Shown: positions 1,131-14,899 of the stretch, one piece after another
Layout: each line of letters starts with the position of its first letter
How positions within the stretch are numbered: the stretch's first letter is position 1
From: Phycisphaeraceae bacterium
GTDB taxonomy: Bacteria; Planctomycetota; Phycisphaerae; Phycisphaerales; Phycisphaeraceae
Direction of reading: 5' to 3'
Length of the DNA: 14,899 nt
Assembly: GCA_016763955.1 (NCBI GenBank)
Contig: JAESSU010000381.1
Location: forward strand, 1-14,899
The notes under the pieces: model-generated
What the model saw: the letters and a program-made list of their open reading frames with translations, nothing else
Database searches by the model: none
Told to the model about the DNA's origin: nothing
Position numbers and translations under genes: made by a program

Positions 1131-3599
1131 ATGTCTTTGATGCAATTAGACCGGCGTAACTTTCTTAAGAGTGTCGCAATGGCAACGGCCACAGCTGCTG
1201 CTCACGAAACCTTTGCGGCTACCACCAATGATGTTTCCTTACCTCAACTTGATCCGAAGGTGACTGATCCACCCGCGATTGATGGGGTTGTCTGGGACAA
1301 AGCACCTTGCCGATTCTGCGGTACGGGTTGCCATGTCATGGTGGGTGTCAAAAACAATCGCGTCGTCGCTGTTACAGGTGACCGGCATGCTGCGGTTAAC
1401 AAGGGATTGCTCTGCGTGAAGGGCTATCATGTGGGCTCGATCCTCTATGGTCAAGGTCGCCTAACACAGCCCTTGCTCAAAACAGACACAGGTTACAAGG
1501 CGATTTCTTGGGAAGAAGCGATCAAGGTCATTGCCAAACGCATTATCAAACGCCCCAAGACTTTTGCGATTTATGGTTCGGGCCAATGGACCATTCCCGA
1601 AGGTTATGCTTGCCAAAAGTTCATCAAAGGCGGACTTGCGAACAACCATATTGACCCCAACGCTCGGCTGTGCATGGCTTCGGCGGTCACCGGCTTCATC
1701 GGAACCTATGGCGTTGACGAACCCGCAGGTTGCTATGACGACTTAGATGCTGCAAACGTTATTATCACCTGGGGCAACAACCCTGCGGAGATGCATCCCG
1801 TGCTCTTTAGTCGGTTTATCGACCGACGCAGCCGTGGTGAAAAAGTCACCCTCATCGACATTGGTACACGCCGCACACGAACCACTGAGCAGGCAGACCA
1901 TTACCTTTGCTTTAATCCGCATAGTGACCTTGCAATTGCCAACGGTATCATGCAGCAGCTTATTGAAAATGACACGTTTGACAAAAAATTCGTTGAACAA
2001 CACTGCAACTTCCGCTATCAGGTCGATCCTAAGAAGCCCGGCCTCAAGGGGGCGCCCAGCACCTTTGAAGCCTTTAAGAAAGCGGTCGCCGAATATACGC
2101 CCGAACGTGTCGAAGAAATTTCAGGCGTGCCAGCGGACAAAATTCGCATGCTCGGCAAACTCTTTGGTAGACGAGACATTCGCATCACAAGCCTTTGGTG
2201 CATGGGCATGAACCAGCACTCCGCAGGCACGATGATTAACAACCTTGTTCATTCAGTACATTTACTCTCAGGCCATTTTGGTCGCCCAGGCGATGCCCCG
2301 ACCTCACTGACCGGTCAGCCTTCCGCTTGCGGGACAGCACGGGAAGTAGGCACATTGGCTCATGCATTGCCCGGCGGTCGCCTTGTGAAGTTAAAAGCCC
2401 ATCGTCAGCACTGCGAAGATATCTGGAACTTGCCACGCGGACGGATGAATCCAAAGCCCGGTTATCACACCGTTAAAATGTGGGAAGCCTTCTGCACACC
2501 AACCGATCAACCCGGAGGTGATATCGATACCATCTGGGTGCAGGTGACTAATCCAGGCCAAACACTGCCTAACCTGCATAAACTCTTTGACCCTAAAGCG
2601 AATCTTAAAGATAAATTTTTGATCGTTTCTGACGTGTATCCCACCGCGACCACACAGCTTGCGGACTTGATTTTGCCTGCCGCATTGTGGGTGGAAAAGA
2701 ACGGCATGTTCGGCAACTCCGAACGCCGTACGCAGCAATGGTTCCGTCAAGTCACGCCCCCCGGCCAAGCTCGCGATGACTGCTGGCAAGTGATTGCTGT
2801 AGCGCGTGCGATGTTTGACATGGGGCATGAAGGCATGCGTGATAAAGACGGTAAATTTATCTTCGAAACCAAAGACGACCAAGGCAGTGAAGTTCCTATC
2901 TGGGAATGGGAAAACTACTATGGCAAAGTTAATGTCGACGAAGCACTCTTTGAAGAGTATCGCAAATTTACACGCCTGAAACACAAAGACCTTGCGCCTT
3001 ACAGTGAATACGTCAAAGCACACGGACTCCGCTGGCCTGTGGTTCAGCAGCCTGATGGTTCGTGGCGTGAAACGGGTTTCCGCTTCTCAGGTTTTGATGA
3101 CCCGTATGTGGGTAAAGACGCAAGTGGTAAGCCTAAAGAGTTTGATTTCTATCACTCCACGACCAAAGACGGCCGTGCTCAAATTTGGCATTATCCTTAT
3201 CTTGATCCACCCGAAATGCCCGATGCGACGTATCCCTTCTGGCTCTGCACGGGACGTGTTTTGGAACACTGGCATAGTGGTACCATGACCCGTCGCGTCC
3301 CGCAACTAGCTCGCGCAGTTCCACGTGCGTATGTCGAAATTAATCCTGATGATGCCAAGGCAGCAGGGATTGCTCAAGGATCGCCGGTGAAAATCGAATC
3401 TCGCCGAGGCAGTATCGTTTTACCTGCACGAATCAATGGACGTGGCCAGCCGCCACGGGGATCGATTTTCGTTCCATTCTTTGATGAAACCAAATTAATT
3501 AATAATGTCACGCTTGATGTAACCTGCCCTATCTCCAAGGAGCCTGATTACAAAAAATGTGCGGTGAGTATTATGCCAGTTTCAACGAGTAAGGGGTAA
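1131..3599 (+). CDS. napA: NapA, periplasmic nitrate reductase catalytic subunit
   Basis: The 822-residue length is close to that of the proteobacterial enzyme. The protein reduces nitrate to nitrite at a bis-molybdopterin guanine dinucleotide site in the periplasm. A Tat leader is present: RRNFLK at residues 8-13, then an Ala-rich hydrophobic stretch and a likely cleavage site near residue 30. The N-terminal [4Fe-4S] site uses Cys60, Cys63, Cys67 and Cys95, with the conserved Lys97 after the last cysteine. Cys181 in NARLCMAS sits where NapA enzymes carry the cysteine ligand of molybdenum. The family blocks SLTGQPSACGTAREVG and, near the C-terminus, GRVLEHWHSGTMTRR, are also present. GGAG at 1118-1121 supports the ATG at 1131; a second in-frame ATG at codon 4 would also keep the Tat motif. 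The cysteine at 181 separates it from Asp-type NarG enzymes. The assignment is very secure. Confidence 0.98.
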   Translation: MSLMQLDRRNFLKSVAMATATAAAHETFAATTNDVSLPQLDPKVTDPPAIDGVVWDKAPCRFCGTGCHVMVGVKNNRVVAVTGDRHAAVNKGLLCVKGYHVGSILYGQGRLTQPLLKTDTGYKAISWEEAIKVIAKRIIKRPKTFAIYGSGQWTIPEGYACQKFIKGGLANNHIDPNARLCMASAVTGFIGTYGVDEPAGCYDDLDAANVIITWGNNPAEMHPVLFSRFIDRRSRGEKVTLIDIGTRRTRTTEQADHYLCFNPHSDLAIANGIMQQLIENDTFDKKFVEQHCNFRYQVDPKKPGLKGAPSTFEAFKKAVAEYTPERVEEISGVPADKIRMLGKLFGRRDIRITSLWCMGMNQHSAGTMINNLVHSVHLLSGHFGRPGDAPTSLTGQPSACGTAREVGTLAHALPGGRLVKLKAHRQHCEDIWNLPRGRMNPKPGYHTVKMWEAFCTPTDQPGGDIDTIWVQVTNPGQTLPNLHKLFDPKANLKDKFLIVSDVYPTATTQLADLILPAALWVEKNGMFGNSERRTQQWFRQVTPPGQARDDCWQVIAVARAMFDMGHEGMRDKDGKFIFETKDDQGSEVPIWEWENYYGKVNVDEALFEEYRKFTRLKHKDLAPYSEYVKAHGLRWPVVQQPDGSWRETGFRFSGFDDPYVGKDASGKPKEFDFYHSTTKDGRAQIWHYPYLDPPEMPDATYPFWLCTGRVLEHWHSGTMTRRVPQLARAVPRAYVEINPDDAKAAGIAQGSPVKIESRRGSIVLPARINGRGQPPRGSIFVPFFDETKLINNVTLDVTCPISKEPDYKKCAVSIMPVSTSKG

Positions 3600-3602
3600 G
3601 TT

Positions 3603-4499
3603 ATGAAAAATCCCCCCCGGAAGCCTAAGACAACAACTACCCCCGGATCATCCCCTAATACAACTTCCGGGGGTGATTCACAATCTTCTGAGATTGTGGG
3701 TGCCAAGGTTGCGACTGTGATTCTCTTTATGGTCTTCACGATTGCTGTCGTGGGCTATCTTGTGGGCATTCGTCATGTGACTGATTCAGGTGATAAATCG
3801 CATCCGGTACTCGATGCGATGAAAGTGTCCAAACAAGAAGCAGAGGTTCAGCATGTTGGGCCTGCGGTGCGGTACAACCAAATTAGCCAAGGCAATCTTG
3901 GCGCCAATGCGACTTGGCAGACACAGGTTAAACAAGCGGTCTTAGAGACTGCTTTAGTCATGCCCCGCGTTGATATTGCCTATGGTGGTGACAAGACCCA
4001 AGCACTAGCAAAGCGTGCTTCGCGTCGAGCTTTCGATGGTGCGCCTCCGACGATCCCGCATCAAGTGGATCATCTATCGACCCAGGCTTGTACGGTTTGT
4101 CATGGTGCTAACGGGCAGAGTCTGCGTATTGGGAGTCAAGTGGTTGCCTCGCCGATGCCTCATCCGCTGATGACCAATTGTACGCAATGTCATGTGCCTC
4201 AACAGCAGATTCAGGAAGATGAACAGCAGTGGCTGCGTAATAGTTTTGTCGGCAAACCTTCTGCCAAGCAAGGCGAGCGTGCTTTTACTGGCGCACCACC
4301 TATTATTCCTCATTCGGTGTGGATGAGACAGGATTGTCTGAGTTGCCATGGCCCAAATGGTCAGTCATCGATGCGATCGGGTCACGTTTGGCGGACGAAT
4401 TGTTTACAATGTCATGGACAGTCTGCCGATCTAAATCAGCTCGGTGGTGAAAATCAGTTCATTACACCTAATTTTAAACTTCCCGTCAGTCATGAGTGA
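3603..4499 (+). CDS. napB: NapB-like tetrahaem cytochrome c with two tandem NapB domains and a membrane anchor
   Basis: NapB is normally a soluble dihaem partner that passes electrons to NapA. This 298-residue protein contains the NapB pattern twice. Domain 1 (about 141-200) has RAFDGAPPTIPH, haem motifs at Cys163 and Cys193, and ends in NCTQCHVPQ. Domain 2 (about 226-275) has RAFTGAPPIIPH and haem motifs at Cys245 and Cys267. Each domain keeps histidines that could be the distal ligands (H153, H187, H237, H261), so four bis-His haems are plausible. A low-complexity Pro/Thr/Ser stretch (residues 3-30) precedes one hydrophobic helix at about 34-55 that looks like an uncleaved anchor. The gene begins three bases after the napA stop and overlaps the next gene by eight bases. 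Domain 2 lacks the MPHP segment and is shorter. Function as the NapA electron donor is inferred from homology and position. Confidence 0.9.
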   Translation: MKNPPRKPKTTTTPGSSPNTTSGGDSQSSEIVGAKVATVILFMVFTIAVVGYLVGIRHVTDSGDKSHPVLDAMKVSKQEAEVQHVGPAVRYNQISQGNLGANATWQTQVKQAVLETALVMPRVDIAYGGDKTQALAKRASRRAFDGAPPTIPHQVDHLSTQACTVCHGANGQSLRIGSQVVASPMPHPLMTNCTQCHVPQQQIQEDEQQWLRNSFVGKPSAKQGERAFTGAPPIIPHSVWMRQDCLSCHGPNGQSSMRSGHVWRTNCLQCHGQSADLNQLGGENQFITPNFKLPVSHE

Positions 4500-5202
4500 A
4501 AAGCCGGATAAATTTAGTCGTCGAGATTTTCTGCGAGGAAAAATCCTTAGCAGGTTCGTCGATGTCAGTACTCGAAGTTTACAGGCTAAAGGTGAACAGA
4601 TTGCTAATGTTGCGGCCCAGTACGCAGCGCCTGATCATCTCACTGAGCCTGCCCAGCAAACGCAAAGGCAATCAGGCTCTGGGACTTTCCCGGTGATTCG
4701 TGTGCCTGGGGCTATTCAGGAGTCGAAGTTTCTAGCACAATGCACACGCTGTGGTGATTGTATTACCGCTTGTCCGCATCATGCAATTGTGCTTGCGCCC
4801 CCAAGCTTTCGCCAAGCAGCAGGCTCGCCGATGATCAATGCATCGCAGCAGCCGTGTTTGATGTGTGAAAATTTTCCCTGTATTGCCACTTGTCCTGAAG
4901 GCGTCTTGCAGCCAATAGACAAGGGGCTAAAGTATAAAATTGCTGACGCTCGCATCCTTGACTATAACTGTCTAAACGGAACGGGCCGAGCAGCTGAGCA
5001 GTGTTCGATTTGTATCGAGCAGTGTCCTGAATTGGGTGCGATTGTTTTGGATAATGGCATGCCTAGCGTGGTCAACGACAAATGTACGGGTTGCGGGATA
5101 TGTCACTATGCTTGTCCAGCACCGACGAACGCCATTGCGATGATGCCTTTACTTCAAAGACCGGTGACGCTTACTGTAGGAAACATACCCCATGACAGTT
5201 GA
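4492..5202 (+). CDS. NapF/NapG-like ferredoxin with four [4Fe-4S] motifs, probably cytoplasmic
   Basis: This 236-residue protein has four cysteine clusters: CTRCGDCITACP, CLMCENFPCIATCP, CSICIEQCP, and CTGCGICHYACP near the C-terminus. The core resembles NapG, notably the C-x2-C-x4-C-x3-C second cluster and the IRVPGAIQESKFLAQC lead-in. The N-terminus, SRRDFLRGK followed by a polar helix, has no hydrophobic region and looks like NapF, which stays in the cytoplasm and acts on NapA before export. I therefore describe it as NapF/NapG-like and give no symbol. The ATG at 4492 overlaps the end of the napB-like gene (ATGAGTGA), which suggests translational coupling. A GTG further upstream at 4444 would add 16 residues that resemble no family member. 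There is no napH partner for it to dock with. Confidence 0.8.
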   Translation: MSEKPDKFSRRDFLRGKILSRFVDVSTRSLQAKGEQIANVAAQYAAPDHLTEPAQQTQRQSGSGTFPVIRVPGAIQESKFLAQCTRCGDCITACPHHAIVLAPPSFRQAAGSPMINASQQPCLMCENFPCIATCPEGVLQPIDKGLKYKIADARILDYNCLNGTGRAAEQCSICIEQCPELGAIVLDNGMPSVVNDKCTGCGICHYACPAPTNAIAMMPLLQRPVTLTVGNIPHDS

Positions 5203-5576: not shown

Positions 5577-6545
5577 ATGTTTGACCGCCAACATCGCCAT
5601 ATTCATTATCTGCGACTGTCGTTAACGTCAGCTTGTCAGATGCGTTGTACTTATTGCCGGCCCACGGTTTTGCATAAGGACTGTCACACGCCTTTAACGG
5701 CTGCTGATTTTCAGCAGGTCGTTGAGCGTTTAGTTTCTGTACATGGTGTCCGCAAAGTCCGCTTAACCGGCGGTGATCCGACGACAAGGCCGGACTTAAT
5801 TTCGATTATTGAACATATTGCAGCGATTAAGGGCATTGACGATTTGGCGATGACCACCCATGGTTTGACGCTAGCTTCTCATGCACGCGCGTATGCTGCT
5901 GCGGGCTTACACCGAGTCAATGTCAGTTTGGATACGCTTGATAGCGAGCAGTTTGCTCGGATCACAGGTGTTGATGCGATGCAACGTGTGATCGATGGCA
6001 TTGATGAAGCAATCGATGCTGGGCTTACGCCTTTGAAAATTAACACGGTGGTTTTGCGTGATAGTAATGAAGACCAGCTTGCGGACTTGGTTGCTTTTGC
6101 AGCGAGTCGGAGCGTGGGGATTCGTTTTATTGAGTTGATGCCGATGGGGCCTTTGGCAGATCAGTGGGCCAAGCGATACATCAGTGCGGATCGCATGAAA
6201 AGTTTGCTCACTGAAAATATTGTCGACACATGGGAAGCCTTGCCTCAAGGCTCGGACTCTGCTCAGGTTTATCAGGCCTCGCTTCGTGACGGGTCGCAGG
6301 AGGACATTGGTTTTATCACTCCGATGAGCTGTCATTTTTGTGATGCTTGTAATCGTTTGCGTTTGACATCTGACGGCGCGATTTATCCTTGCCTTATGGA
6401 TCAGCCACGCGGTTCATTTTTGCCTGCTCTGACCCCGGAGTTTGATGGTGAGCGGTTTGATGAACTTCTTGAGCAAGCGTTAGCTTACAAAGCACCTGAG
6501 CATCCAGCACAAGGTGTCGGTATTATGACAACCATTGGCGGTTGA
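5577..6545 (+). CDS. moaA: MoaA, radical SAM GTP 3',8-cyclase of molybdenum cofactor synthesis
   Basis: MoaA catalyses the first step of molybdopterin synthesis, rearranging GTP to 3',8-cyclo-GTP. The 322-residue length fits. The radical-SAM cluster is CQMRCTYC (Cys20, Cys24, Cys27). The second, substrate-binding [4Fe-4S] site is Cys255, Cys258 and Cys272 in FCDACNRLRLT-x7-C, with the two arginines (R260, R262) the family uses. The protein ends in Gly-Gly (TTIGG), which is needed for activity in the family. Two deviations stand out: GGDP at 65-68 instead of the usual GGEP, and TTHG at 93-96 instead of TTNG. The lead into the first cluster (SLTSAC) also differs from the common SVTDRC. The ATG at 5577 is the only reasonable start because an in-frame TGA lies at 5568-5570. 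A possible ribosome site AAGGA (5559-5563) is rather far upstream. It is probably a nap-dedicated copy. Confidence 0.93.
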   Translation: MFDRQHRHIHYLRLSLTSACQMRCTYCRPTVLHKDCHTPLTAADFQQVVERLVSVHGVRKVRLTGGDPTTRPDLISIIEHIAAIKGIDDLAMTTHGLTLASHARAYAAAGLHRVNVSLDTLDSEQFARITGVDAMQRVIDGIDEAIDAGLTPLKINTVVLRDSNEDQLADLVAFAASRSVGIRFIELMPMGPLADQWAKRYISADRMKSLLTENIVDTWEALPQGSDSAQVYQASLRDGSQEDIGFITPMSCHFCDACNRLRLTSDGAIYPCLMDQPRGSFLPALTPEFDGERFDELLEQALAYKAPEHPAQGVGIMTTIGG

Positions 6546-6590
6546 TACTCATTAGCCGATCTGCAAGTAATTTGTTTTCGATTTGCAATT

Positions 6591-7781
6591 ATGAAACAAT
6601 CCCGCCCGGCCCCTATAACTGATAGTGATATGAAAGCTGCTTGTCCTTCTGTGCCGCTGCAATTTAATTTGCGTGAGTTGTCTGGATCACTGGGTGATAT
6701 GGGTACTTTTTTGCCTTTGTCAGTTGCCATGGCCATGACTTGTGGGATGGATATCGGCTTGATTTTTATTTTTGCTGGACTGATGAATATTGTCACCGGC
6801 TTATTGTTTCGTCAGCCGATCCCTGTCCAGCCTATGAAGGCCATCGCAGCCGTCGCTATTGCCGAGGGGCTAAGTCCGGGCACGATTGCATCAGCGGGGA
6901 TGTTGATGGGTGTGATCATGTTCTTGCTTGCAATCTTTGGGGGCATTGATTGGATTGCAAAGAAAATACCTTTGCCAGTGGTTCGCGGTATTCAGGCGGG
7001 TGTGGGCGTGAAACTGGCACTTAAAGGTTTAGCATGGATTGGGGCGCTGCCAGCAACAGGATGGGATAGTTGGCTTGTTGCTTTGCTAATTGGTTTGATT
7101 GTGGTTTTGTGTATACGACGATGTCAGCCGGTGTTGCTTTATGTTTTTATCGGGGGTTTTTTTCTGATGGGTTTATATCGCGGCGAATTGTTTGAAGGAT
7201 TGACGCTGAGTCTGCCTAACTTTGTCATTGTGCTGCCGGAGTTTTCGGATTGGCAGACGGGTTTGTTACGCGGAGCGATTCCTCAATTGCCCTTGACGCT
7301 GCTCAACTCGGTGATTGCAGTTTGTGCGTTGAGTGAAAACTATTTTCCCAAACGGGGTGTCGACCCTAGACGCATGGCAATGAGTGTGGGGCTAATGAAC
7401 CTATTATGCGTTCCTTTTGGTGGGATGCCCATGTGCCACGGCGCTGGGGGCTTAGCGGCGCAGTATCGCTTTGGTGCGCGCACCGGCGGCAGCGTGGTCA
7501 TGCTGGGCATTATGAAAATTGTCGCAGGCTTTTTGCTTGGCGGTATGCTACTGACCACGTTGACCTATTACCCGGTGAGTATTTTGGCGATCATGATTTT
7601 TGTGGCTGGGGTGACACTTGCCAAGGCTGCTGCTGATGTGATGCATGGACGCTCAGCAGTGATTGTCATCCTGATGGTTGTTGCCACCGTGTGGGTTAAT
7701 ACCTTGACGGGGTTTGTCATCGGTTGCTTGCTTGCAGCGGTGTTTTATCAGTTTTCAAAACGTAAAAAACCAACTGCGTAA
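6591..7781 (+). CDS. MOT1-type molybdate (or sulfate) transporter
   Basis: This 396-residue, strongly hydrophobic protein has about ten membrane segments. It carries the hallmarks of the MOT1 molybdate transporter family, a branch related to SulP carriers: ELSGSLGDMGTFLPL near residue 28, PIPVQPMKAIAAVA near 76, and FGGMPMCHGAGGLAAQYRFG around 279-298. MOT1 proteins import molybdate with high affinity. Placement directly after moaA in a nitrate reductase operon strongly favours molybdate over sulfate as substrate, since this operon needs the metal for NapA. The start at 6591 lacks a clear ribosome-binding site; an internal ATG at codon 14 would still leave all motifs intact. It is the last gene of the plus-strand operon. 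The substrate is inferred, not proven by sequence. Confidence 0.85.
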   Translation: MKQSRPAPITDSDMKAACPSVPLQFNLRELSGSLGDMGTFLPLSVAMAMTCGMDIGLIFIFAGLMNIVTGLLFRQPIPVQPMKAIAAVAIAEGLSPGTIASAGMLMGVIMFLLAIFGGIDWIAKKIPLPVVRGIQAGVGVKLALKGLAWIGALPATGWDSWLVALLIGLIVVLCIRRCQPVLLYVFIGGFFLMGLYRGELFEGLTLSLPNFVIVLPEFSDWQTGLLRGAIPQLPLTLLNSVIAVCALSENYFPKRGVDPRRMAMSVGLMNLLCVPFGGMPMCHGAGGLAAQYRFGARTGGSVVMLGIMKIVAGFLLGGMLLTTLTYYPVSILAIMIFVAGVTLAKAAADVMHGRSAVIVILMVVATVWVNTLTGFVIGCLLAAVFYQFSKRKKPTA

Positions 7782-8016: not shown

Positions 8017-10065
8017 TTACGGTCGCTGATGATGATAGACGTGGCAGTTTAAGCAACTGTTATCTGCTTGGGTGGGTGTGTGACACGAAGCGCAAGTTGC
8101 TTTGTCGTGGGGCAAGAATTGACAACGTGATAAGACTGCGGATGTTTGGTCTTCAGGGCCAGGTTGTTTGTGACATTGAGTGCAGTTATCACTGTCGCGG
8201 AGCATGGTCATATGTGGGCCGTGATTAAATTTGGAGAAACCACTGACGGCTTGGGATCGGTTCGATGCTGTCCAGTTAATGGCTTGCGACTGGGCCTCCA
8301 TTTGATGACAGGTTAGACAAGCGGTGCGAGCGAACCCGCCGGAGTCGGTTAATTGCTTGAGGATCATGCTGCGTTGTTGAGCACGGGTTGCTGTTGCATC
8401 ACTTGTTTGCGCTTTGGCTGAATTAACTCCAGTCGATTCCGATTCTACCAATGCGTCCAAAAGCCCTTTGATGACCGGGTCTGCATGACCGATGGGCCGG
8501 TAGGACACAGCGATGTCATCCTGATCAACGTACCAGCCGGCATGGCCATCTGGGTAGCTCCAGTCCGGCTCTTGGGTTTCATTTTTCTTGACTTCTTCAC
8601 CCTCAAGATCATCACTTAAAAGGGGTAGCCAGCGTTGCTGGTAGGTAAGAAATGCAAAATTCGCAGCCGCTAAAGGTTTGGCCAATGCCGTGACACGCCG
8701 ATGATTGGGTGCGACATCAAGGGCTTTGGCGATACGCTTACGGCATGTTTTTTCATCACCGTGGGCGAGGTCGTCGAGCAGGTGCTTAACCGCCTTGGTG
8801 AACAGGCTCATACTTTCATCTTCATCAGGGAACCATTCAGCGGGGATGCCATCGGCATCGGCATCGATGCTTTGCAATGCAGCTAAGGCATCATCATCAC
8901 CCAGTAACAGCAGTCGCATCAATGGCGGGATTTCATCTTCACCCATGGCCGCATCTTCAGGCCAGTAAATATCTTCGACTTCCAATAGGGGCAGTTGGAA
9001 GACCAGATGGCTATTGTCTTTCAAACTACTGCCGTGCCAGTCCTCGGTGCCTTGATTATGGCAGCCCATGCACGCTTGTTCATAAGGTTTTAAACGCATG
9101 CTAATGCCTGCGGTATCGGGCATGTGGCAGTCTGCGCAGTTGCGTGATGCGTGCTTGGGTTTTTGGTGATCAAAAGCAATCCCAGATCGGGTATGTGAGA
9201 CCAAATCAAAGGCAGGATGCCCGTCATTAAAAGAAGCGAACGAGGTGGTGTGGCAGACTTGGCACTGTGTATCACTAAGCTGCGAGAGGTTGTGCATCTT
9301 GCCCCGGTGTTCCTGATGGCAGGTGGCGCAAGCGATATCATTTTGAATGTTTGTATGGATGCCAGGCATCGCAGTAGCAGCAACGAGCGCGAGGGTGGGT
9401 GATGCGGTCTGAGGTGTTTGATTATCGCGTTTGCCCCATGAGGCTAACTGGTCGATGTTTACATTATGGACGCGCAAGGCCGAATCGCGGTCTTGATTAA
9501 AGTGACACGTCAAACAGTTCTCACTTTGGACGAGACGGTCAGGTATGCCCAGATGGCCTAACGCTCCGGATTGCGTGACACCCGAGGCGTTGTGGCAGAC
9601 GGTACAGTTAGAAGACTGGCCATTGATAGGTTCAATGGCTAAGTGGGCATGACTTAATTGGCCTGGTGAAATAATTGCGGTGGTCCAAGGGCCGTTAAGA
9701 GCGACAGTCAACAAGCCTACCGTAAATGCCAAGCATGCGAAGACGATTCGGGTCCGTTTGGTGCGACCGCTTAGTCGTGGATGGCAGACATTAAATTCAG
9801 GCTGGGGATGACAGCAGCTGCCATCGGGATTGGGCCCGTTGGGGCAAGGTCCGCCGTAGACTCCTAGACGGGTGCATTGCCAGCGGTCGCCTTCTTTGAG
9901 TGGTTCACAGGAACATTGCGCAGCACTGGTGCAAGCGCCTTTGGCATCGGGCCCGAGTGGACACGGGCGACCGTCAGTGGTGTGACCGCAGACCCATTTT
10001 TGGTTGGGGCGTTCGTAGCGACTGTCTTCGTGTCCGATTTTTTGCAAGGGAATCTTCAACGGCAT
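8017..10065 (-). CDS. Membrane-anchored decahaem cytochrome c with cysteine-rich cytoplasmic N-terminal domain
   Basis: This 682-residue protein has three parts. Residues 24-94 hold ten cysteines in two similar units, each W-x-C-x(8-9)-C-x9-C with a PCP-x-GP core (units at 24-45 and 62-84). Residues about 107-125 form one membrane helix preceded by RTKRTR, so the cysteine-rich part should lie in the cytoplasm. The rest is periplasmic and has ten CXXCH motifs: six at Cys154, 184, 246, 268, 310 and 332, then a non-haem, acidic helical region of about 245 residues, then four at Cys583, 628, 658 and 671. Its ATG shares one base with the stop of the cytochrome b-like gene upstream (TAATG), implying coupled translation and a joint complex. 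It probably accepts electrons from that membrane protein and distributes them in the periplasm. The cysteine-rich domain could bind Fe-S or zinc. I cannot name the family. Confidence 0.92.
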   Translation of the reverse strand: MPLKIPLQKIGHEDSRYERPNQKWVCGHTTDGRPCPLGPDAKGACTSAAQCSCEPLKEGDRWQCTRLGVYGGPCPNGPNPDGSCCHPQPEFNVCHPRLSGRTKRTRIVFACLAFTVGLLTVALNGPWTTAIISPGQLSHAHLAIEPINGQSSNCTVCHNASGVTQSGALGHLGIPDRLVQSENCLTCHFNQDRDSALRVHNVNIDQLASWGKRDNQTPQTASPTLALVAATAMPGIHTNIQNDIACATCHQEHRGKMHNLSQLSDTQCQVCHTTSFASFNDGHPAFDLVSHTRSGIAFDHQKPKHASRNCADCHMPDTAGISMRLKPYEQACMGCHNQGTEDWHGSSLKDNSHLVFQLPLLEVEDIYWPEDAAMGEDEIPPLMRLLLLGDDDALAALQSIDADADGIPAEWFPDEDESMSLFTKAVKHLLDDLAHGDEKTCRKRIAKALDVAPNHRRVTALAKPLAAANFAFLTYQQRWLPLLSDDLEGEEVKKNETQEPDWSYPDGHAGWYVDQDDIAVSYRPIGHADPVIKGLLDALVESESTGVNSAKAQTSDATATRAQQRSMILKQLTDSGGFARTACLTCHQMEAQSQAINWTASNRSQAVSGFSKFNHGPHMTMLRDSDNCTQCHKQPGPEDQTSAVLSRCQFLPHDKATCASCHTPTQADNSCLNCHVYHHQRP

Positions 10066-10892
10066 TATCCTAGGAAAACGTGGATTAAAAAGGCATGAAC
10101 CACTGCCACGGCGATGAGCATATAGGTAAGGGGAATGTGAATGAATAACCAGATTTTGAGTATTCCCTGCATTGCCAAGTGGTAGTCCAACGCATCTTTG
10201 GTTTTAATTAAATCTCTTAATTCAACAGCAATGGCTCGTTCTTCCGTGCCCAAGTAGCGATCTTGAGTGGTGAGTTTGCTAAGGAGGTTATGCAGAGGCT
10301 TGTGGGATTGCATCAGATGAAACCGCAGGTTCCTAGATCGTGCAAAGTAATCCGCTAGGTGAGCGGTATAAAAATCTGAAAGGATGGTGGCGTTGGTTTT
10401 TTCAACCGATTGGATCATTAAGTTTTCAGCTCGTAAGCGAAGCTCGCGTCTGAACATGGGAATCCGTTCATAGATCACTTCCGAGCCTCGAACAGCGAGT
10501 CTTGGTGGGATGGCGCGTGTGAGAATGATCCCAAGAACGCCGCTGGTAAATGTTGTGATGTACAGGGTTGCGAGTGTGACTTCGATGATGCCGTTGGGGA
10601 TTCGAAATCCGATGTGGAAAGCAAACACTAGGAGGGTAATCCAAGCGACGTAGAGATGCAGTTGAAGCCATGTCGCAGATCGCAAGAGTGGCGGGTAGGT
10701 CAGCTTTTTTCGCAAGTTATAGCAGGCTAGAAAGAGGATCATTCCCAGCAAAGCCCATCCGGTGGCGTAATGGGTATCGCGCAATGACAAGTTGCTTGCG
10801 ATAAGCAGCAACGCTAAGCCAGCTGCCAAGGCTAGTGTTAAAAGCGATGACAAGTAACGTCTAAAGCGGAATGTTCTTATCGGTTGAACCAT
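10065..10892 (-). CDS. Five-helix membrane protein, predicted dihaem cytochrome b
   Basis: This 275-residue protein has predicted helices at about 13-32, 43-59, 74-96, 101-125 and 245-274. Helix 3 carries His79 and His93; helix 5 carries His252 and His266. Both pairs are spaced H-x13-H, the arrangement used by helix pairs that sandwich two b haems. Charge distribution (RFRRY before helix 1, RKK after helix 2) puts the N-terminus and the long 126-244 loop in the cytoplasm. His79 and His252 then lie near the cytoplasmic face, and His93 and His266 near the periplasmic face. Such a protein would carry electrons across the membrane between the overlapping upstream ferredoxin (16-base overlap) and the downstream decahaem cytochrome (1-base overlap). 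The loop is rich in charged helix and may dock the ferredoxin. It might also exchange electrons with quinone. The family is not recognised by name. Confidence 0.8.
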   Translation of the reverse strand: MVQPIRTFRFRRYLSSLLTLALAAGLALLLIASNLSLRDTHYATGWALLGMILFLACYNLRKKLTYPPLLRSATWLQLHLYVAWITLLVFAFHIGFRIPNGIIEVTLATLYITTFTSGVLGIILTRAIPPRLAVRGSEVIYERIPMFRRELRLRAENLMIQSVEKTNATILSDFYTAHLADYFARSRNLRFHLMQSHKPLHNLLSKLTTQDRYLGTEERAIAVELRDLIKTKDALDYHLAMQGILKIWLFIHIPLTYMLIAVAVVHAFLIHVFLG

Positions 10893-12688
10893 TGGCTGAG
10901 TATATCCATTTCGCGCATATCAACGCGTTTAAGGGCATCATGAGGGCAAGCACGTTCACAAGCAGGGCCGCCGTGATGGTCGGTGCACAGATCGCATTTG
11001 GTGGCTTTGGCAATGGGTTTGCCATTGTTAGGATTGACGACAATAGCGTCGCTGTTGAGTTGGTCTCGGATTTCGACCATGCGAATATTTTCGTAAGGGC
11101 AACTGCTTGCGCACACACCGCAGCCGATGCATGTGATGTCGTTGATAACCACTTCGCCGCCTTGTGTGGTGCGATGGATTGCGCCGGTGGGGCAGCCGAT
11201 CATGCACACCGGGTCTGCACAGTGCATACACGCATTGGCCACGAGGTAGTGATCGATGGTTGTGCCATGGCGGACAAAACGCGGATTGTTGTCATGTCCA
11301 CTAGAGCAGGCTCGGACACAGTCATCACAGCGTGTGCAGCGATCTAGGTCGATGAGCATGGTCGCCGAGCCGTTGATGAAGCGGTTTTCGACGAGGGATT
11401 CGAGTATCACCGGGGCGATGCGGTCTTTTTCAGCAGAGGGGTTTTGAGTCGGTGTCGATGGGCTAGGCGGTGAGGAAACTTTGTTTTGGAGAACGGGGAT
11501 TTGATCAACTGGGATGTTGGGGATGATCAACTGCTCGGCGGTGGCTGTGGGGACGCGCACGATGTCGACGTAGCCGATGGCCCGGAGGGTGGTGGTCAAG
11601 GGGGTGGGGTCGTTAGGGTGTTTGGCATTGTGAGCCAGTTCGGCAAGGCCGTAGACATCGCCTTTACTTAGATAGCCTAGGGTGTGTTCACCGCTACCTT
11701 GTTTACAGCTGATACGCGCGAATCCTGCTCGGATGATAATCAGGCCGTTGGGGTAATGTCCTTGGGCTGCGATCACGGGTTCTTGGGTGAGGGGGTTGGA
11801 ATTTTCTTCGCGCAATGCTTGATAGCTGCCATACCAGTCGTAAGAACCGTAGGTGGCAAACTCTGCGGTTTGGACGATGGGTTGAAGCTGCGTGTCACTG
11901 CGTTGGTGCAGATGAATTTGAGCTGCATTTTGCAGAGCATCTTTTAATCCGCGTTCACGGTAGAGCTGGTCAACGTATTGGCGCAGTGCGTTGTCGAGTT
12001 GGCGTAGGTCTCGCAAACCTTGCCAGCGGATTTCTAATAGTTGGGTATCGCCTTGAGCCACGCAGCTCGCAGCTCGTGGAATGCGTCCTAGTGCCGCAAG
12101 TTCACCAAAGAGTACGCCCGTTTCCATGGTGACGGTGTTGGTGATTTTTAGGGGACTTTTGGGATCCGTTGGGTCCAGAGGTTCTTTTAGCGCTTTAAGG
12201 ACATTTGGGATGTCTTGAATTGCAAACGTCGTGCCCGGTTTGGCAGTTGTGCCAGAACCCTCACGCAGTTGCGGGTAGAGGCGAGTGTCACGGGACTCAG
12301 GCATGCGTGGCAAGGTGAAGAGCTTGGTGAATGATCGCCAGCGACTTTGGGTTTTGGTCTTCTTGCGACCCAGCAGTGTCGGGTCCAGATCATCAAGTAG
12401 AACCTTGACGCTACCGACAAGTGTAATAAAAGCAGAGTTCCCGTAATCACCTTTACGGACGATGACATCACCATCATGGAACTGTAATAACCGAGTGTCA
12501 TTGTGGAGGATGTCCTTGAGCTTCTTGCGATTTTCCATCTTGGCAAAAGGTTCGATCACAAGGAGTCGTTGGACAAGTTCCTCCTGCGCTTTTTGAGCTA
12601 CCTCAGGCGTTTGATCACGCTGTGATCGCTCGGCAAAGAAGGGAATGTCCCAACGTTTGGGCCGATCTAGCACACTTGTTTTACTCAT
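10877..12688 (-). CDS. Soluble protein with two cyclic-nucleotide-binding folds fused to a 4x[4Fe-4S] ferredoxin domain
   Basis: This 603-residue protein has no signal peptide or membrane helix. The first cNMP-binding fold starts at FHDGDVIVRKGDYG (70-83) and ends with a phosphate-binding cassette FGELAALGRIPRAAS (194-208) that keeps the key Glu196 and Arg205. About 85 residues are inserted between the two halves (roughly 101-187). A second fold (about 279-380) has YGLAEL but no matching arginine, so it is probably a non-binding copy. After a Pro/Ser linker (402-420) comes an iron-sulfur domain of the DmsB/HybA kind with four clusters, at Cys451-461, 487-499, 520-530 and 565-581. It is probably a cytoplasmic electron carrier whose activity or docking responds to cAMP or cGMP. 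It overlaps the cytochrome b-like gene by 16 bases. A transcription role is unlikely because no DNA-binding helix-turn-helix follows the cNMP folds. Confidence 0.9.
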   Translation of the reverse strand: MSKTSVLDRPKRWDIPFFAERSQRDQTPEVAQKAQEELVQRLLVIEPFAKMENRKKLKDILHNDTRLLQFHDGDVIVRKGDYGNSAFITLVGSVKVLLDDLDPTLLGRKKTKTQSRWRSFTKLFTLPRMPESRDTRLYPQLREGSGTTAKPGTTFAIQDIPNVLKALKEPLDPTDPKSPLKITNTVTMETGVLFGELAALGRIPRAASCVAQGDTQLLEIRWQGLRDLRQLDNALRQYVDQLYRERGLKDALQNAAQIHLHQRSDTQLQPIVQTAEFATYGSYDWYGSYQALREENSNPLTQEPVIAAQGHYPNGLIIIRAGFARISCKQGSGEHTLGYLSKGDVYGLAELAHNAKHPNDPTPLTTTLRAIGYVDIVRVPTATAEQLIIPNIPVDQIPVLQNKVSSPPSPSTPTQNPSAEKDRIAPVILESLVENRFINGSATMLIDLDRCTRCDDCVRACSSGHDNNPRFVRHGTTIDHYLVANACMHCADPVCMIGCPTGAIHRTTQGGEVVINDITCIGCGVCASSCPYENIRMVEIRDQLNSDAIVVNPNNGKPIAKATKCDLCTDHHGGPACERACPHDALKRVDMREMDILSQWFNR

Positions 12689-13967: not shown

Positions 13968-14899
13968 TTATGCGTCCAATGTGATTTCACCTTTGGGTTT
14001 GCAACAGCACACTAAACAGGAGCCTGCTTCACACTCGAAGTCTGGGGGTGATTCGTACTGGACTTCACCGGAAATGATGGCTGTTAGACAAGTGCCACAA
14101 CTGCCTTTGCCGCATCCTATTGGGATTGTTGCGCCCATTGAATCAGCGAACTTCCAGAGTGTCTGGGCGCTATCGTCCCAGTTGGCGGCCTTGCCGTTAC
14201 GGTTGAGGGTGACCTTGGGGCCGGTGGCATTGGGATTGACTTTTTTCACGACTTTCGTGCCGGCAGCAGGCCCAAAAGCTTCTAAGTTAATGCTCGATTT
14301 GGGAACGCCCCAAGACTTAAGGTCTTTGACGATCGAATCCATCATCGGCGGTGGGCCGCACATGTAAAACTCGTAGTTGTTAGAGGGGAGCAAGCTTTTG
14401 AAGAGTTCAACACTCACACGTTGGGCATGGGCGTAGTCTTGTCCTTGAACACAGTCATCAGTCGGGTTGGAATAACAAATATGAAGATGGATGTTGTCAT
14501 GAGCACTAGCGAGATCTTCGAGGTGCTGTTTCATAGCATGCTCGCTCTTATTGCGAACACCATAAAAGAACCAAGTTTCGCGACTGGATTCAGATTCGAC
14601 AATCGTGTTAAGCATGCTGACCACAGGTGTCAGGCCCACACCCCCGCCAATAAGTACCACAGGTCGTTCGTCAGTCATGTCCAGATAAAAGGCCCCTGCG
14701 GGGGTACTCACATCAAGAATCGTTCCGACATTAACATGGTCGTGGAAATAATTGGACGAAAGTCCAGCAGGTGCGTCAGGCGCGTTGCGCGGCGGTGGCA
14801 CACGTTTGATAGAAACACGGTAATAATCTGGATGCGATGAATCCGATAGAGAATAACAACGTACCACAGGCGCGTTCTGACCGGGAATATGCAGATGAA
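13968..14899 (-). CDS. Flavohaemoglobin-type FAD/NAD(P)H reductase with C-terminal [2Fe-2S] domain, 5' end beyond the window
   Basis: The frame is open to the right edge. Codons upstream of the GTG at 14867 read HLHIPGQNAPVVRCYSLSD, the family's FAD-binding P-G-Q and R-x-Y-S-L-S motifs, so that GTG is internal and the true start is outside. PAGLSSNYFHDHVNVG and VLIGGGVGLTP follow, closely resembling the reductase half of Hmp flavohaemoglobins, then CGPPPMM of the NAD(P)H-binding domain. The C-terminus is a plant-type ferredoxin with CGKGSCGTC and a final CLVCCC. The protein should move electrons from NAD(P)H through FAD to [2Fe-2S] and on to an acceptor. The acceptor might be a missing N-terminal domain or a separate protein such as hybrid cluster protein (as with Hcr). 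In a nitrate-reducing setting, detoxification of nitric oxide or other reactive nitrogen is a reasonable guess only. It ends 106 bases before the cytochrome c554-like gene. Confidence 0.88.
   Translation of the reverse strand, partial: HLHIPGQNAPVVRCYSLSDSSHPDYYRVSIKRVPPPRNAPDAPAGLSSNYFHDHVNVGTILDVSTPAGAFYLDMTDERPVVLIGGGVGLTPVVSMLNTIVESESSRETWFFYGVRNKSEHAMKQHLEDLASAHDNIHLHICYSNPTDDCVQGQDYAHAQRVSVELFKSLLPSNNYEFYMCGPPPMMDSIVKDLKSWGVPKSSINLEAFGPAAGTKVVKKVNPNATGPKVTLNRNGKAANWDDSAQTLWKFADSMGATIPIGCGKGSCGTCLTAIISGEVQYESPPDFECEAGSCLVCCCKPKGEITLDA

Follow-up and report, generated by a model that had tools for sequence, protein, structure and literature searches.

In 2017, He et al. (PMC5566968) predicted an extracellular electron transfer gene cluster encoding a putative porin-cytochrome c complex, PCC4. 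As set out in the sections of that paper covering PCC4, its membrane protein has five transmembrane (TM) segments, two WX3HX13H motifs (in TM3 and TM5) and an SGXXG motif (in TM4), and subgroup II, which has Planctomycetes among its hosts, combines a porin with cytochromes carrying 4, 5 and 10 haems. A gene for an iron-sulfur protein (pfam13247) lies just upstream of the five-TM gene in subgroup II only, and the same subgroup has a redox gene upstream of its gene for the tetrahaem cytochrome. He et al. found PCC4 in iron oxidisers and proposed that its electrons flow inward to quinones; in the consulted part of a 2026 paper (PMC13264449) it receives a single comparative mention. Here we examine a gene set of this kind in a 14,899-nucleotide stretch of DNA (the whole of contig JAESSU010000381.1 from a Phycisphaeraceae bacterium of the Planctomycetota, hereafter the window), and report that its iron-sulfur subunit carries two cyclic-nucleotide-binding (CNB) domains, the first of which has a strictly conserved ligand cassette.

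The window encodes cytochromes with 4 and with 10 CxxCH motifs, and a pentahaem cytochrome is present elsewhere in the host genome. The cytochrome b of the window has both W-x3-H-x13-H motifs and the SG-xx-G motif on five helices, the PF13247 gene at 10877-12688 overlaps the upstream end of the cytochrome b gene, and a reductase gene (13968-14897) lies upstream of the tetrahaem gene. A possible counterpart of the porin is a barrel-like open reading frame (ORF) of 493 residues on host contig C56, without a Pfam family above cut-off. The window set therefore matches the published account of PCC4 subgroup II genes and motifs, in the sections noted above, and the suggestion in a first-pass annotation of this DNA that no complex of this make-up had been described is not supported. 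What seems to be new is the strictly conserved cyclic-nucleotide cassette in an electron-carrying subunit, which appears to have been overlooked: He et al. make no mention of cyclic nucleotides in their main text, and we found no account in the literature of a cyclic-nucleotide-binding iron-sulfur protein together with a cytochrome or porin. A further difference is a Cys-rich tail on the decahaem protein, which is absent from the sections of that paper covering PCC4.

The features of the conduit genes in the window are as follows.

13968..14897, minus strand: C-terminal part of a reductase with FAD, NAD(P)H and [2Fe-2S] domains (NAD_binding_1 E 3.4e-21, Fer2 E 5.7e-9), running off the contig end
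12773..13861, minus strand: tetrahaem cytochrome c554-like protein with a hydrophobic N-terminus and 4 CxxCH (cytochrome c554 1bvb, E 1.9e-5)
10877..12688, minus strand: tandem-CNB / 4x[4Fe-4S] fusion protein of 603 residues, hereafter CNB-FeS (Pfam, Cys motifs and model)
11948..12598, minus strand: first CNB domain, CNB-A, residues 31-247 (model)
12065..12109, minus strand: phosphate-binding cassette of CNB-A, F194-G-E196-LAALGRIP-R205-AAS208 (alignment conservation)
11489..11965, minus strand: second CNB domain, CNB-B, residues 242-400, with the fold kept, the cassette Arg lost and E350 kept
10946..11338, minus strand: four [4Fe-4S] cluster-binding Cys sets, residues 451-581 (Cys patterns)
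10065..10892, minus strand: five-TM di-haem cytochrome b of 275 residues (motifs and model)
8017..10065, minus strand: membrane-anchored decahaem cytochrome c of 682 residues (ten CxxCH)
9784..9990, minus strand: Cys-rich N-terminus of the decahaem protein (two four-Cys modules)
9685..9756, minus strand: single TM anchor of the decahaem protein, residues 104-127 (hydropathy)

The first-pass annotation had singled out the three overlapping genes at 8017-12688, and ORF analysis confirms their coordinates, with overlaps of 16 bases between the CNB-FeS and cytochrome b genes and 1 base between the cytochrome b and decahaem genes. Pfam and the AlphaFold model also agree with its description of the first protein as four [4Fe-4S] Cys sets plus two cNMP folds. 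Pfam assigns two stretches to cNMP_binding (E 4.1e-20) and the part after them to 4Fe-4S domains; at E 0.001 there are 12 matching families, one cNMP_binding and eleven iron-sulfur cluster models, and PF13247 scores E 1.3e-9. The four [4Fe-4S] patterns comprise 16 Cys, at 451-461, 487-499, 520-530 and 565-581. The AlphaFold model matches two CNB folds, at about residues 31-247 and 242-400, the first interrupted by an insert of ~85 residues (seen by eye on the model). The best-ranked Foldseek matches to the model are PKA/PKG regulatory subunits, with a top E of 2.4e-14, and a profile search with the protein likewise retrieves PKA/PKG CNB domains. A CRP/FNR-type transcription factor can be rejected as an identity for CNB-FeS, since no C-terminal helix-turn-helix DNA-binding domain is found among its Pfam matches at E 0.001.

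The two CNB folds of the window protein are unequal, as the Glu/Arg cassette is found only in CNB-A. CNB-A combines the features expected of a cyclic-nucleotide receptor, a CNB fold with a cassette Glu and Arg spaced nine residues apart, and positions E196 and R205 are those which we take to contact the phosphate in true cNMP receptors. In an alignment of 199 CNB-FeS rows (196 distinct, judged on the last 250 residues), F194, E196, R202 and R205 are kept in 199/199, as is T/S208. A second set of 32 ORFs, 26 of them new and 6 repeating the first, has the cassette Glu and Arg in every member together with all 16 cluster Cys. The intact CNB-A cassette extends to relatives at 35-40% identity, whose CNB-B likewise has a full FGE..R cassette. 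The proposal that a cyclic-nucleotide domain is fused to an electron carrier is thereby borne out, with a strictly conserved ligand cassette in CNB-A. In a distant planctomycete clade (L009-L017 and L150-L152), which has the same three-gene core, the cassette pattern is present in both CNB domains of 12/12 CNB-FeS ORFs. One CNB-FeS relative, P0110, also matches an FHA domain in its precomputed Pfam list, which would give it a further signalling input.

Like PKA/PKG regulatory subunits, CNB-FeS has CNB folds in series, and its CNB-A cassette aligns with theirs in the same register without a gap. The output there is a kinase, whereas here it is a four-cluster ferredoxin domain, and CNB-FeS further differs in the insert in CNB-A and in the degenerate CNB-B cassette of the window's clade. 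The cluster region is of the same type as that of HycB3 and HycB4 of HDCR and of HydN/DmsB/NrfC-type four-cluster ferredoxins. Those subunits are short (HycB3 184 and HycB4 210 residues; HydN and DmsB models 181 and 161) and therefore have no room for CNB domains, and they serve catalytic partners. The Hmc and Tmc complexes of sulfate reducers also join an iron-sulfur protein, a b-haem membrane protein and a periplasmic multihaem cytochrome c, to our knowledge without a cyclic-nucleotide domain; the decahaem match to HmcA is far under cut-off, at 23.7 against 400 bits.

The AlphaFold model of the 275-residue cytochrome b has five long helices, with a mean pLDDT of 94.0. The first-pass annotation counted two H-x13-H pairs. 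Two such pairs are indeed invariant, H79/H93 and H252/H266, but the spacing occurs four times in the sequence (79/93, 178/192, 238/252 and 252/266). Since the invariant pairs are these two, the partner of H252 is H266 and not H238. In a 51-row alignment W75, H79, H93, G118, G121, H252 and H266 are invariant, with W248 and S117 almost so, giving W75-x3-H79-x13-H93 on helix 3, SG-xx-G at 117-121 and W248-x3-H252-x13-H266 on helix 5. The third protein is an anchored decahaem cytochrome as claimed, with ten CxxCH motifs and a single TM segment near its N-terminus. Its N-terminal tail, a feature absent from the first-pass annotation, carries two Cys modules (C26, 35, 45, 53 and C64, 74, 84, 94) and has no Pfam match; an alignment of 66 decahaem proteins has each of the eight Cys in 98% or more of its members. 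Because positive residues precede the TM segment, this tail is probably cytoplasmic. The duplicated four-Cys modules probably bind metal, possibly at a new metal site, and the four plus four Cys may provide extra metal centres at the proposed gate. Inspection by eye shows that certain relatives (L144, L148 and L149) keep a single module of the tail, and that it is missing from those decahaem N-termini of the distant clade that could be read.

To assess how widely this core is conserved, named genome contigs were scanned with the CNB-FeS alignment, which gave at least 526 confirmed matches among at least 587 stretches, and the best 80 loci were kept. Going by record titles, which are the submitters' own and in a few cases look wrong (one metagenome-assembled genome is titled Klebsiella pneumoniae), these span Planctomycetota, Verrucomicrobiota, Alpha- and Gammaproteobacteria, Nitrospinota, SAR324 and Poribacteria; L092 belongs to a named strain, Hwanghaeella grinnelliae Gri0909. 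Cytochrome b lies directly downstream of CNB-FeS in 78/80 loci. At one of the two exceptions, L090, the contig ends 125 bases on, within what are the first ~40 residues of a cytochrome b. A multihaem ORF follows cytochrome b in 76/80 loci; all 72 untruncated copies have exactly ten CxxCH, and the other 4, all cut by contig ends, have six. Starting from the other gene, a cytochrome b profile run over 392 Planctomycetota genomes gave 68 matches at E 1e-10, from which 20 regions, mostly best matches, were taken (L133-L135 repeat the contigs of L063, L088 and L028). In each of the 20, a single upstream ORF joins both CNB-A and CNB-B to the cluster domain, and a decahaem-family ORF lies downstream. 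The three families thus co-occur in fixed order across phyla, far beyond chance, and conservation in 78/80 and 20/20 loci rejects the idea of an arrangement peculiar to the window. At L072 a natural fusion that would join CNB-FeS to cytochrome b was also rejected, as the long cytochrome b ORF overlaps CNB-FeS in a different frame. In a quick tree the window protein groups with sequences from gammaproteobacteria and planctomycetes (support 99), only 3/60 sampled relatives have a full-length match at >50% identity, and the distribution of the unit among phyla is patchy, which together suggest spread by lateral transfer.

A ligand for CNB-A could come from nucleotide cyclases. We scored class III cyclases as PF00211 matches and calculated expectations from the number of cyclases in each genome and its size. 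PF00211 is present in the genomes of 77/80 loci (37/40 and 40/40, one genome being counted twice). A cyclase lies inside the fetched locus in 15/80 cases against 2.06 expected, 10 of the 15 forming a single Verrucomicrobia cluster in which the arrangement is shared. After 79 loci (L023 dropped) were collapsed at 65% identity, a cyclase remained in 6/29 clusters against 1.77 expected (P 0.002), and with cyclase-rich genomes left out, in 4/27 against 0.92 (P 0.007). The sample chosen by cytochrome b has a cyclase within ~10 kb in 10/30 genomes; counted by genus, 3/16 are cyclase-linked against 0.41 expected (P 0.006). Cyclase genes therefore lie close to the operon at a frequency above that expected at random. 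In one planctomycete genus, all 7 sampled genomes have only two cyclases each, one of which is 4.7 to 5.1 kb away, and at L139-L141, which belong to this genus, it adjoins the tetrahaem gene. At these three loci the cyclase has the pentahaem/barrel genes on one side and the tetrahaem/CNB-FeS genes on the other (the pentahaem gene is outside fetched L140). Sensor domains on linked cyclases include CHASE2 (L060 and L081), 7TMR-DISM (L027) and an N-terminal FHA, found by Pfam in L139 and by eye in L140 and L141; the cyclases of L093, L095 and L146 have the catalytic domain only, with no sensor domain found. The single PF00211 match in the host genome is a CHASE2-cyclase on a contig other than the window.

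The conserved unit is larger than 8017-12688, taking in the tetrahaem and reductase genes of the window and more on other host contigs. Relatives such as L019, L023, L025 and L027 have the pentahaem gene first, then those for the barrel-like protein, the reductase and the tetrahaem cytochrome, and after these CNB-FeS, cytochrome b and the decahaem gene. A reductase profile match is present in 75/80 loci, on the same strand in 71, and a tetrahaem match in 74/80, on the same strand in 41, although this profile catches other c554-type cytochromes too. Barrel and pentahaem genes are each present in 23/80 loci, within fetched stretches that are often short. The host assembly is 3.58 Mb in 559 contigs and 78.5% complete. 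Contig C34 ends in the first part of the pentahaem gene and C56 carries the second, the CxxCH motifs being split 3+2 (by eye), and 20/21 pentahaem-cluster relatives have five. The barrel-like ORF that follows on C56 ends in Phe, as do 19/23 members of its family. C56 also carries the N-terminal part of a reductase with a TM-like stretch (L098 2848-3162), which runs off that contig. From synteny and the cut reductase gene, the host operon appears to be broken over three contigs. In several Verrucomicrobia loci (L043, L060, L061, L078, L079, L089, L096 and L097) large barrel-like proteins (~800 residues) and/or large multihaem proteins (1146-1339 residues, 7-10 CxxCH; LVIVD repeats in L096) lie near the core, and are perhaps an alternative outer-membrane part. 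A porin-cytochrome cluster of freshwater Verrucomicrobia (PMC5615132) was considered as a candidate for the same system; its periplasmic cytochromes have eight haems, and that paper's main text makes no mention of a cyclic nucleotide, ferredoxin or cytochrome b.

On balance we consider it somewhat probable that these genes encode a trans-envelope conduit of the PCC4-II type, with a cyclic-nucleotide receptor as its iron-sulfur subunit, gated at CNB-A and carrying current outward. Electrons from NAD(P)H would pass through the FAD/[2Fe-2S] reductase to the four [4Fe-4S] clusters of CNB-FeS, from there through the two b haems across the inner membrane to the ten c haems, with the tetrahaem protein, and then through the pentahaem cytochrome and outer-membrane barrel to an extracellular acceptor. 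A class III cyclase would make cAMP or cGMP, the nucleotide would bind CNB-A, and the ligand-bound, PKA-R-like tandem CNB would shift relative to the cluster domain, opening or closing contact with the reductase or cytochrome b. The result would be fast post-translational control of a current that drains reductant and membrane potential. We infer complex formation, ligand binding and gating, as well as the outward direction, the last because a reductase is present and because of established redox potentials. The transmembrane electron path of the first-pass annotation is supported by the ordered co-occurrence of iron-sulfur protein, di-haem cytochrome b and decahaem cytochrome c. Its claim of a complete path within three genes was overstated, as electrons probably enter at the upstream reductase and leave by the pentahaem/barrel pair, neither of which belongs to the three. 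Allosteric control of the conduit by a cyclic nucleotide is plausible.

Several observations weigh against a cyclic-nucleotide-gated outward conduit. The vicinity is free of cyclases in 65/80 loci and 13/16 genera, so the cyclase linkage is supportive and not decisive. Three genomes (G066, G073 and G075; 3/80 loci) have no PF00211 match; in the two of these three loci for which the cassette was printed, L030 and L032, it is intact. E350 of CNB-B is conserved nearly as well as E196 despite the lost Arg, so that conservation alone is no proof of ligand binding. The cluster region of the CNB-FeS model is weaker, with block pLDDT of 61-87, and no clear solved relative of cytochrome b was found. 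The host barrel and pentahaem genes are on contigs other than the window, linked to it by synteny and the cut reductase gene. Finally, at L055 (11700-12266), the second of the two exceptions among the 80 loci, the 566 bases after CNB-FeS hold another open frame and no cytochrome b, meaning either a rearranged locus or an assembly error.

Beside the conduit genes, at 1131-5202 on the plus strand, is a periplasmic nitrate reductase (Nap) cluster. It includes a NapA-like protein (best NCBIfam score 880 against a cut-off of 904), a NapG-like protein and one resembling NapB, which carries a TM segment at its N-terminus and four CxxCH where NapB usually has two haems. Behind it, at 5577-7781 on the plus strand, is a molybdenum supply block made up of a radical SAM ORF that looks MoaA-like by eye and a molybdate transporter of the MOT1 type (PF16983, E 3.7e-60). 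At 1-690 on the minus strand a divergent tetrahaem cytochrome (c7/NrfB-like) reaches the contig end.

The direction of the current is the first point on which other explanations differ. An inward conduit, in which Fe(II) or another extracellular donor feeds the quinone pool at cytochrome b by way of porin and cytochromes, while the iron-sulfur protein and reductase form NAD(P)H or a reduced carrier, is possible although we think it doubtful. It follows the model that He et al. (PMC5566968) proposed for PCC4 of iron oxidisers, in the sections covering that complex. The adjoining Nap cluster would suit nitrate-dependent oxidation, and indeed would suit either direction of current. However, a reductase-family gene in 75/80 loci argues for NAD(P)H at the cytoplasmic end, and no quinone site was identified. 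NAD+ reduction by a donor at the level of Fe(II) is uphill without a proton-motive coupling site, and many of the hosts are Verrucomicrobiota and Planctomycetota that are not known to be iron oxidisers.

The CNB domains could instead be structural, a docking or assembly scaffold that keeps the fold and cassette with no cyclic nucleotide bound in the cell. Structures of trypanosome PKA regulatory subunits are titled cAMP-independent and guanosine-bound, and CNB-B is well conserved though its cassette Arg is lost. We regard a scaffold as unlikely: E196 and R205 are present in all sequences checked, the 199 rows and 26 more from several phyla, and cyclase genes are enriched nearby. Also improbable is a module confined to periplasmic respiration, with nitrogen oxides or a soluble compound as acceptor, an ordinary porin and no extracellular transfer. 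It would accord with the match of the tetrahaem and pentahaem proteins to the cytochrome c554 family, with barrel and pentahaem genes in so few of the fetched stretches and with the adjoining Nap cluster, but not with the adjacency of the barrel and pentahaem genes in the host, their place within the same gene run in relatives, or a gene set equal to the published porin-cytochrome prediction, as given in the PCC4 sections of PMC5566968.

Returning to the gated outward conduit, cyclic-nucleotide control is familiar to us from kinases, channels and acetyltransferases, and we know of none acting on an electron-carrying subunit. That widespread conduits are gated post-translationally by a cyclic nucleotide, with a PKA-R-like wire and, in several lineages, sensor cyclases alongside, is in our judgement evenly balanced between true and false. 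If true, a cell could open or shut an extracellular current without new transcription. If CNB-FeS binds cyclic nucleotides, it would constitute a second-messenger valve on outward respiration in Planctomycetota, Verrucomicrobiota, Proteobacteria and others, and the combination of CNB-FeS, cytochrome b and decahaem cytochrome provides a genome marker for a common, uncharacterised electron-transfer complex.

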